Positions 40,030 to 43,427 of a stretch of DNA of 64,000 nt are shown in pieces (position 1 is the stretch's first letter; each line of letters opens with the position of its first letter). Below the pieces are notes generated by a model. The model did no database searches. It worked only from the letters and a program-made list of their open reading frames with translations, and was not told the origin of the DNA. Source of the DNA: Rhizobiales bacterium 64-17 (lineage in GTDB: Bacteria > Pseudomonadota > Alphaproteobacteria > Rhizobiales > Xanthobacteraceae); the NCBI GenBank assembly GCA_001899285.1, contig MKWA01000006.1, forward strand, positions 17,378-81,377. Direction: 5' to 3'. A program made the translations under genes and the position numbers.

Positions 40030-41442
40030 TCAGCGGAAAAACAGGACTGTGATCAGAACGAACAGCGGCAGCAGGATCAGTCCCGACCAGATCATGTAGC
40101 CGAAGAACGACGGCATCGCGACGCCGCCGCGCCGGGCGATGGCGTAGACCATGAAGTTCGGCGCATTGCCGATATAGGTGTTGGCGCCCATGAACACGGC
40201 GCCGGCGGAGATCGCCGCGAGCGTCGAGGCGAAGGTCGTCATCAGCACTTTCGGATCGCCGCCGGCAAGCTCGAAGAACACCAGATAGGTCGGCGCATTG
40301 TCGAGGAACGACGACAGCGCGCCGGTCACCCAGAAATAGGCGATGTTGTTGGCGTGGTCGCCTTTGCCGACCAGCGACACCAGTGGCGCCAATGCGCCGT
40401 CGAGACCGGCGTGCAGGATGGCGATCACCGGCACGATGCAGATGAAGATCGCGACGAACAGCTTGGCGACCTCGACGATCGGTCCCCATTCGAAGCCGTT
40501 GCCCTCGCGGCAGGTCTTCGGCGTCAGCCAGAGCGACAGCAGCGTGGCGATGACGAACACGGCGTCACGGACGAGATCCTGCAGCGGCAATTCGACCGTG
40601 TAGAGCGTGAACGTGATGCCCGGTTTCCAGTAGGCGCTCATCAGGATCGCGGCGATCACCAGCGCGATCAGCAGCAGGTTGATCTTGCCGTGCAAAGCGA
40701 GCGGGGAATCCGGCGTGAAATCGAACGGATGCTCCTCCCGTTCCTCACGGTGGTGCAGATACCAGTCCATCAGGAAAAATAAGACCAGCAGGATCCCGAC
40801 ACAGACCAGCATCTCCGGGAACAGGTGCTGCGGCGTCCAGAAGAAATCGACACCTTTGAGGAAGCCGACGAACAGCGGCGGATCGCCGAGTGGGGTCAGC
40901 ACGCCGCCGATATTCGAGACGAGGAAAATGAAAAAGACGATGACGTGGACGTTGTGATTGCGATCGTCATTGGCGCGCAGCACCGGGCGGATCAGCACCA
41001 TCGACGCGCCGGTGGTGCCGATGAAGCTCGCCAGCACGGTGCCGATGCCGAGCAGGATCGTGTTGGTCGCGGGCGTGCCGCGCAGATTGCCCTCGAGCCA
41101 GATGCCGCCGGCGATGGTGAACAGCGCCAGCAGTAGCAGGATGAACGGCATGTATTCGTGCAGCAGCGCGTGCAGGAGCGCGTCGGTCGCCGGCCCCGTG
41201 CCGGCGAACAGATAGAGCGGGATGATGGTGCATGCCGCCCAGAACGCGGCGAACTTGCCGTAGTGGTGTTCCCACAGATGCGGATAGAGCAGCGGCCCGG
41301 TGGCGATCGACAGCAGCATGCCGGCGAACGGCAGTGCCCACAGGATCGACATGCCGGCGCCGTTGAGCCCTTCGGCAGCGAACGCCGGCTGCGGCAGAAA
41401 TACGCTGCCGGTCAGGATCGCCAGTGCCAGTCGCAGTCGCAT
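40030..41442 (-). CDS. Sodium:proton antiporter / CitT-ArsB-like (NhaD-type) ion transporter
   Basis: Multi-TM; GTVLASFIGTTGASMVLIRPVLRAN...VFFIFLVSNIGGVLTPLGDPPLFVGFLKGVDFFW...SSFLDNAPTYLVFFELAGGD. Confidence 0.88.
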   Translation of the reverse strand: MRLRLALAILTGSVFLPQPAFAAEGLNGAGMSILWALPFAGMLLSIATGPLLYPHLWEHHYGKFAAFWAACTIIPLYLFAGTGPATDALLHALLHEYMPFILLLLALFTIAGGIWLEGNLRGTPATNTILLGIGTVLASFIGTTGASMVLIRPVLRANDDRNHNVHVIVFFIFLVSNIGGVLTPLGDPPLFVGFLKGVDFFWTPQHLFPEMLVCVGILLVLFFLMDWYLHHREEREEHPFDFTPDSPLALHGKINLLLIALVIAAILMSAYWKPGITFTLYTVELPLQDLVRDAVFVIATLLSLWLTPKTCREGNGFEWGPIVEVAKLFVAIFICIVPVIAILHAGLDGALAPLVSLVGKGDHANNIAYFWVTGALSSFLDNAPTYLVFFELAGGDPKVLMTTFASTLAAISAGAVFMGANTYIGNAPNFMVYAIARRGGVAMPSFFGYMIWSGLILLPLFVLITVLFFR

Positions 41443-41528: not shown

Positions 41529-42110
41529 TCACGCCGGCTCGTGTTCGGCGCAAAGGCGCGTCCTGTCGCTGTCCTGCAGCGTTTGTTCCAGCAGCGTGCA
41601 CCAGTGGGTGCGTTCGCCTTTGGCGCCGGCGCGGAAATGCCGGCAGGTGTGGCAGACGCCGAACGGGCGATCGCCGCGGCCACGCTGAAGCTGCGTCAGC
41701 ATGGCAGCGAGACCTTGCAGCATCGCCTCGCGCTGCGTTGCCGGGAGCGTGGCGGCGGCGGCGGTCAGCTCCTGCATCGGGTCGCGTGCCGCGAGCGTTT
41801 CTCCGCGCGGCGTGAGGAACAATCGGACGACACGGCCGGACTCCGGATCGGGACGGCGCTGGAGGAGGTGCTTGCGTTCCAGCGCATTCAGGGTCTGCGA
41901 AGCGGTGCCTTTGGTGGCGTTGAGAAATCGCGCCACCGCGCCCGGCGTGTTGGAATAGCGGTTGCAGCGCGCGAGGTAGGTGAGCGCGTCCCACTGCGCC
42001 GGGTTGAGCCCGGCCGCGTGACGCTCGGCACGGACGAGCCGGGCCAGCCGCTCGATCAGTTCGGCGATCAGCGGGGCGTCGGCGGGTGTGGCCGGAGTTC
42101 TTGCGATCAT
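41529..42110 (-). CDS. MarR family regulator with cysteine-rich C-terminal tail
   Basis: NPAQWDALTYLARCNRYSNTPGAVARFLNATKGTASQTLNALERKHLLQRRPDPESGRVVRLFLTPRG; tail FGVCHTCRHFRAGAKGERTHWCTLLEQTLQDSDRTRLCAEHEPA. Confidence 0.88.
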   Translation of the reverse strand: MIARTPATPADAPLIAELIERLARLVRAERHAAGLNPAQWDALTYLARCNRYSNTPGAVARFLNATKGTASQTLNALERKHLLQRRPDPESGRVVRLFLTPRGETLAARDPMQELTAAAATLPATQREAMLQGLAAMLTQLQRGRGDRPFGVCHTCRHFRAGAKGERTHWCTLLEQTLQDSDRTRLCAEHEPA

Positions 42111-42119
42111 CAGCCCAAA

Positions 42120-42134
42120 GTATCGACTCGCTAG
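42120..42134. promoter_or_regulatory. Second, imperfect copy of the MarR operator-like palindrome
   Basis: GTATCGACTCGCTAG versus GTATCGAGTCGATAC at 42163: same length, arms match at 12 of 14 positions outside the centre; lies just upstream of the MarR start. Confidence 0.55.
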
Positions 42135-42162
42135 CATCTTGCAAGGTTGCCCAATCTTGATA

Positions 42163-42177
42163 GTATCGAGTCGATAC
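42163..42177. promoter_or_regulatory. Probable MarR operator (perfect inverted repeat)
   Basis: GTATCGA-G-TCGATAC, 7-bp perfect arms, 18 bp upstream of the ATG at 42196 in a divergent promoter. Confidence 0.65.
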
Positions 42178-42195
42178 AATAAAGGAGGGCTCCCC

Positions 42196-42921: not shown

Positions 42922-43427
42922 CGGACGGAAGCCGCATGCAGAACACGACACAAGACATGACGCAGATGACGCAAGCCCCGGAACTGATCGTCGACAGCTG
43001 GTTCAACGCCGATCAGCCGCTGACGCTGGCGGCGCTGCGCGGGCGTGTCGTGTTCCTGCATGCGTTCCAGATGCTATGCCCCGGATGTGTCAGCCACGGC
43101 ACACCGCAGGCGCAGAAGGCGCATCGGGTGTTTCACGCGAGCGGCTTGCAGGTGATCGGTCTGCACACCGTGTTCGAGCATCACGCAGCAATGACGCCGG
43201 TGTCGCTCGAAGCGTTCATCCACGAATACAAGCTGAGCTTTCCGATCGCGGTGGATCGTCCCGGCGACCCCGGCCCGTTGCCGCAGACCATGCAGGCTTA
43301 CGCGTTTCAGGGAACGCCGAGCGCCGTGATCATCGGCCGCGACGGGCGCATCCGCCATCGCGCGTTCGGTGCCGAGGACGACATGGTGATGGGCGCGCGC
43401 CTCGCTGCGGCGTTGAGCGAGGCTTAG
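42918..43427 (+). CDS. Redoxin/TlpA-like thioredoxin-fold protein
   Basis: RGRVVFLHAFQMLCPGCVSHGTPQAQKAHRVFHASGLQVIGLHTVFEHH...FQGTPSAVIIGRDGRIRHRAFG; CPGC motif; ATGA overlap with upstream gene. Confidence 0.85.
   Translation: MTDGSRMQNTTQDMTQMTQAPELIVDSWFNADQPLTLAALRGRVVFLHAFQMLCPGCVSHGTPQAQKAHRVFHASGLQVIGLHTVFEHHAAMTPVSLEAFIHEYKLSFPIAVDRPGDPGPLPQTMQAYAFQGTPSAVIIGRDGRIRHRAFGAEDDMVMGARLAAALSEA

Follow-up and report, generated by a model that had tools for sequence, protein, structure and literature searches.

The window, a 64,000-nucleotide stretch of contig MKWA01000006.1 from Rhizobiales bacterium 64-17, carries a gene for a 193-residue MarR-family regulator (marR, 41529–42110, minus strand). 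The translation, P0001, ends in FGVCHTCRHFRAGAKGERTHWCTLLEQTLQDSDRTRLCAEHEPA, letter for letter as quoted in a first-pass annotation that had described a MarR regulator with a Cys-rich C-terminal end. The winged helix-turn-helix (wHTH) domain spans approximately residues 34–107, a C-terminal dimerisation helix spans residues 124–145, and a tail with four cysteines (residues ~149–193; 41532–41666, minus strand) begins right after that helix. P0001 scored above the Pfam cut-offs for both MarR_2 (PF12802; 45.3 bits vs. 27) and MarR (PF01047; 31.2 bits vs. 24.6). The AlphaFold2 model of the full-length protein (mean pLDDT 93.5) has the MarR-type fold, including dimer helices at both termini, and was matched by Foldseek to MepR, SlyA, HcaR and MarR (E ~1e-6 to 1e-5). 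By its wHTH scores and the fold of the model, P0001 is a member of the MarR family. Within the window's own genome the MarR_2 model has 43 matches, 30 of them over the cut-off, and only P0001 bears the four-Cys tail. A Pseudolabrys MAG (L021) encodes a protein 98% identical to it, which makes the host a bacterium of the Pseudolabrys type.

Divergent from marR lies P2 (P0002; 42196–42921, plus strand), a predicted exported protein of 241 residues with a signal-like N-terminal sequence, which has no Pfam match and gave nothing meaningful against PDB sequences. It is followed by a redoxin gene (~42936–43427, plus strand) with a CPGC motif and the AhpC-TSA/Redoxin fold (PF00578 and PF08534, both above cut-off). 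The first-pass annotation had taken the divergent partner to be a thioredoxin-fold protein; the direct neighbor is in fact P2, and the redoxin comes second in the divergent operon. Immediately after marR, also on the minus strand, comes a gene for a transporter-like membrane protein (40030–41441), NhaD/citrate-type by appearance, which is absent from the recurrent neighbors of relatives of the tailed marR.

Relatives of P0001 were retrieved with a peptide pattern from the HTH (LxPAQWxAL) and not with the tail, giving 80 sequences across the Alphaproteobacteria, or 81 with the window protein. All 81 sequences have all four tail cysteines, and because the set was fetched by its HTH, the tail is not a chance cluster of cysteines. 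The first-pass annotation had singled out these residues, and no close homologue was found to lack any of them; they are also kept in farther relatives at ~30% identity. In P0001 the pattern reads F150-G151-x-C153-x2-C156-x14-C171-x15-C187. Across the family it is C-x2-C-x(9–25)-C-x15-C, such that the loop between the second and third cysteines varies from 9 to 25 residues while the last gap is 15 in all 81. Besides the cysteines, only F150 and G151 reach 90% conservation in the tail, and no cysteine outside the tail does so in the 81 sequences. Histidine, which had also been listed as a feature of the tail, did not hold up: the residue two after C187 is His in 44/81 sequences and Gln in 21/81, and His occurs two residues before C171 in 61/81. 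A conserved histidine completing a metal site was dropped as a candidate on this account.

Unsupervised counts of 7-mers upstream of the 81 marR genes, compared with shuffled sequence, returned GTATCGA, CGACTCG, GAGTCGA and their relatives far above the shuffles. The palindromic consensus TAGTATCGANTCGATACTA occurs at 14/18 or better in 52 of 81 loci and in none of 810 Markov shuffles (shuffle maximum 13), typically as two sites ~40–55 bp apart. Beyond the alphaproteobacterial set, it scores 18/18 in an Enterobacter plasmid copy and 16/18 in Vibrio. In the window, the predicted operator O1 (TAGTATCGAGTCGATACAA; 42161–42179) is an inverted repeat that matches the consensus at 17/18 and abuts the Shine-Dalgarno sequence that precedes the P2 start codon; the predicted operator O2 (AAGTATCGACTCGCTAGCA; 42118–42136) matches at 14/18 and ends ~7 bp short of the marR start codon. 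A sigma-70 promoter scan of the marR/P2 intergenic region found none. These palindromes in the divergent promoter region constitute a conserved predicted operator of the tailed MarR family. Allowing at most one mismatch, TATCGASTCGATA occurs at three places in the 4.63-Mb genome. Two of the three are O1 and O2, and P0001 is therefore probably a local, autoregulatory regulator. The third lies ~15 bp upstream of an apparent flagellin start and was judged to be chance, as several one-mismatch matches are expected in 4.6 Mb.

One clade linked to pckA (L024, L025, L028, L030, L032, L034, L039, L040, L041, L049 and L072) keeps the four-Cys tail and has no operator upstream of marR, and its target would therefore lie elsewhere or be marked by a different site. 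The pckA-linked loci lack the operator except for L033 and L035, which also carry P2. Since these two loci have both P2 and pckA, pckA was rejected as a target and taken as a matter of genomic position.

The genes opposite marR recur across the relatives. The divergent unit is P2, a redoxin, P2-redoxin, a short CPVC glutaredoxin-like protein (in Pseudomonas-like bacteria and Enterobacter) or an RpoH2-type sigma-32. P2 homologues are divergent from or adjoin tailed marR genes throughout the family, and the order marR, P2, redoxin is the same in Vibrio. On the Ruegeria pomeroyi DSS-3 megaplasmid (L161, 1831–6214), a single divergent unit comprises P2, a hexameric tyrosine-coordinated heme protein, the redoxin, a MOSC protein and a PDR/VanB oxidoreductase. 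Tailed marR genes have redox genes as neighbors. Also at L161, marR overlaps a second MOSC gene, as it does in Phaeobacter and Leisingera. In some distant relatives (L144 and L151) the divergent position is taken by a gene for a short predicted membrane protein (beginning MNLKVISPTLHGLLDYTAALG in L144) and not by P2 or a redoxin.

The linkage was also seen when loci were found by the tail alone. A tail-only profile matched 35 of 399 Pseudomonadota genomes: 12 of the 15 with P2, vs. 23 of the 384 without it (Fisher p ~1e-11). In the reverse view, 13 of 17 P2 loci inspected have the tail motif no more than 1.5 kb away. At the well-matched tail loci that were inspected, the tail sits on a MarR protein, and two wHTH groups bear it: one of the LNPAQW type, and a distant one that has NPTQ and whose tail reads RMCxSCRHF. 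A P2, redoxin or glutaredoxin-like gene lies within 1.5 kb in 19 of the first 23 loci found in this way, both MarR subfamilies among them. Given the operators and the gene linkage, P2, the redoxin and related neighbors would be regulated by the tailed MarR protein. The invariance of the cysteines in all 81 sequences, the fixed C-x15-C spacing and the tight linkage to thiol-redox genes together strongly support a dedicated four-Cys metal or redox module in the tail.

What the module holds had been left at Zn, Fe-S or disulfides, and of these the cysteine spacing favors Fe-S, as do fold matches that are individually non-significant. A HiPIP-like [4Fe-4S] site was guessed from the spacing before any fold search. 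The ligand layout of the HiPIP fold, C-x2-C-xn-C-xn-C, is present in 81 of 81 tails; HiPIP itself has C-x2-C-x16-C-x13-C. The small subunits of the HPAD-γ, BSS-β and MASS-γ type have HiPIP-like folds in which a [4Fe-4S] cluster is held via CX2CXnCXnC (PMC12358834). Among five AlphaFold2 models of the tail alone, the best had a pLDDT of 85.8 and the rest 64–70, so that only one model is confident. In Foldseek against the PDB, the top five chains were 2y8n_B (HPAD-γ), 9pzj_B and 4pkf_B (both benzylsuccinate synthase, BSS) and 3h31 and 3hip (HiPIPs from Rhodothermus and Chromatium), with E from 0.32 to 3.6 and none individually significant. The best of them, 2y8n_B, had a probability of 0.95, TMq of 0.63 and rmsd of 2.5, but E ≥ 0.3. 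For this model, the top five converge consistently on one fold, short of statistical proof.

Sequence profiles added less. When profile-profile comparisons were scored against 60 shuffles preserving the cysteines, 2, 2 and 4 shuffles did equally well for HiPIP, HPAD-γ and MASS-γ, a weak excess, compared with 13 for the DksA zinc finger and 21 for rubredoxin. This result is suggestive at best, and we do not base kinship with HiPIP on sequence similarity. The tail profile matched no PDB sequence at E ≤ 10. Across 44 tails there was no significant Pfam iron-sulfur family (the best, BssC_TutF, reached E 0.12 in one tail of the 44), and the weak matches were to DUF7140 (E 0.0044) and to zinc fingers (E ≥ 0.39). 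PF01355, the family of HiPIP proper, matched neither the 44 tails nor the window's own genome. HiPIP proper, a periplasmic electron carrier, was rejected as an identity for the module, which lacks the profile match and belongs to a DNA-binding protein.

The main rival is that the four cysteines bind Zn(II), either as a structural dimer clip or as a redox switch that would release zinc on oxidation and so lose DNA binding. We consider this an unlikely but serious alternative. Four invariant cysteines also suit Zn(Cys)4, a few tails have weak zinc-finger matches (DksA/TraR zf, E 0.39), and AlphaFold is known not to discriminate zinc from iron-sulfur sites. Against it, zinc ribbons and treble clefs need two CxxC-type knuckles, and the tail has a single CxxC with its other two cysteines 15 residues apart, which disfavors these folds. 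Zinc-type folds also reached a Foldseek probability of at most 0.09 vs. 0.95 for HPAD-γ, and the DksA profile matched no better than shuffles. We therefore rank [4Fe-4S] above zinc for the tail site, though not overwhelmingly.

The MarR fold (by sequence and by model), the invariant cysteines, the conserved operator and the conserved gene linkage are direct results. The reading that we favor, finely balanced but leaning towards correct, is that P0001 is an autoregulatory MarR repressor with a HiPIP-like tail and a four-Cys metal site, most likely [4Fe-4S], and that oxidative or nitrosative damage lowers its DNA binding and induces the operon. Cluster type, metal, signal, mechanism and the direction of the switch are here what we infer. 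A dimer with intact tail sites would bind the palindromes O1 and O2, each placed just ahead of a start codon, and would thereby repress both marR itself and the divergent P2-redoxin operon. Candidate signals that could damage the site are peroxide, superoxide, singlet oxygen and NO. A damaged site may alter the tail at its junction with the dimerisation helix, such that affinity for DNA would fall and the operon would be induced; because the tail starts right after this helix, damage could change how far apart the two DNA-reading heads stand. The thiol and heme redox proteins linked to marR, together with a sigma factor in one clade, suggest that oxidants or NO would relieve the repression.

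Alternatively, the tail could be a metal-free thiol switch that acts through disulfides, sulfenylation or persulfidation, comparable to OhrR-type or sulfane-sulfur-sensing MarR proteins. MarR thiol switches are familiar, sulfane-sulfur sensors among them, and the neighboring genes do encode thiol-redox proteins. Thiol-switch MarR proteins, however, use one or two cysteines near the N-terminus or in the wHTH domain, whereas in the tailed family no cysteine outside the tail is conserved, and four invariant cysteines with a fixed x15 spacing over deep divergence fit a tetrahedral site better. We consider a metal-free switch improbable. Membership of the OhrR thiol-switch group was rejected, as no N-terminal cysteine is conserved among the 81 sequences and the NCBIfam OhrR model gave P0001 12.5 bits against a cut-off of 200. 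It is more improbable still that the tail serves only for structure or protein contacts and that an ordinary small ligand is sensed in the usual pocket, in keeping with the canonical core of P0001 and the aromatic ligands often bound in the dimer cleft of MarR proteins: the tail accompanies the P2/redoxin/glutaredoxin module on the second, distant MarR subfamily as well, and thus goes with the genes that are regulated.

Sensing through iron-sulfur clusters is well known for Rrf2, CRP/FNR, WhiB, SoxR and the wHTH proteins ArnR and SufR, the last of which controls the suf genes. Metal or redox signals are also sensed by MarR-fold proteins such as ZitR/AdcR and OhrR, which sense with residues of the wHTH or dimer domain, whereas the conserved cysteines of the tailed family are all in the tail. 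A literature search for a published MarR regulator with a HiPIP-like or Fe-S cluster found none; the nearest was ArnR of Corynebacterium, a wHTH repressor and NO sensor with a C-terminal [4Fe-4S] cluster that loses DNA binding upon nitrosylation (PMC12343034). ArnR shares with P0001 an N-terminal wHTH, a dimerisation helix and a C-terminal Cys module, and the [4Fe-4S] cluster that it binds is the one we propose for P0001, likewise as a repressor. In contrast to the four cysteines of P0001, ArnR has three conserved cysteines (179, 193 and 223), an unknown fourth ligand and no CxxC, and its sensory domain resembles TRAPPC3 and not HiPIP. It is actinobacterial and controls narKGHJI and hmp, whereas the tailed MarR is proteobacterial with other neighbors. 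The four invariant cysteines, proteobacterial hosts and different neighbors rule out membership of the ArnR family. SufR, a wHTH [4Fe-4S] repressor named in the same work (PMC12343034), resembles P0001 as a winged-helix repressor and in the cluster proposed for the tail. HPAD-γ, BSS-β and MASS-γ share CX2CXnCXnC and a similar size with the tail and are its top fold matches, but they are stand-alone subunits of glycyl radical enzymes with no DNA-binding domain and no significant sequence similarity to it.

The [4Fe-4S] reading of P0001 would extend the known class of metal-cluster wHTH repressors, and the tailed MarR suggests that metal-cluster redox switches of a so far uncharacterised family occur across Proteobacteria. 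More broadly, and with somewhat less than even confidence, we suggest an undescribed class of iron-sulfur repressors, MarR joined to a HiPIP-like [4Fe-4S] module, that would be widespread in Proteobacteria (rhizobia, Pseudomonas-like bacteria, Vibrio, Enterobacter plasmids), would guard an oxidant/NO defence module (P2, CPGC redoxin, CPVC glutaredoxin-like protein, heme proteins) and would directly control an RpoH2-type sigma factor in one clade. If true, many genes annotated as 'MarR family regulator' would gain a predicted cofactor, operator and target operon, and a role in redox defence would follow for the exported P2, of unassigned family.

In the clade in question (support 99/97), the divergent gene is an RpoH2-type sigma-32 (NCBIfam PRK07500, 349.5 bits vs. 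a cut-off of 315). The clade is monophyletic (L051, L053, L054, L056, L061, L063, L065, L075, L077, L082, L084, L086, L087, L094 and L095), and at most of its loci a shared operator lies between marR and the RpoH2-type gene. If the class holds, this arrangement might feed a redox signal directly into a stress sigma factor.

Cytochrome P460 is divergent from a tailed marR in two loci, and P460-like genes adjoin or lie near tailed marR genes at L026 (7391–7871), L037 (7405–7927) and also L074. Such neighbors would fit a role in nitrosative stress. Finally, an Enterobacter hormaechei IncHI2A plasmid (L157, 107–14482) carries a chromosome-like block that runs from uspE to the glutaredoxin-like gene, the tailed marR, mppA, mpaA, tpx and tyrR. 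Blocks of this type ride on conjugative plasmids, and more than 50 Enterobacter plasmid records match.
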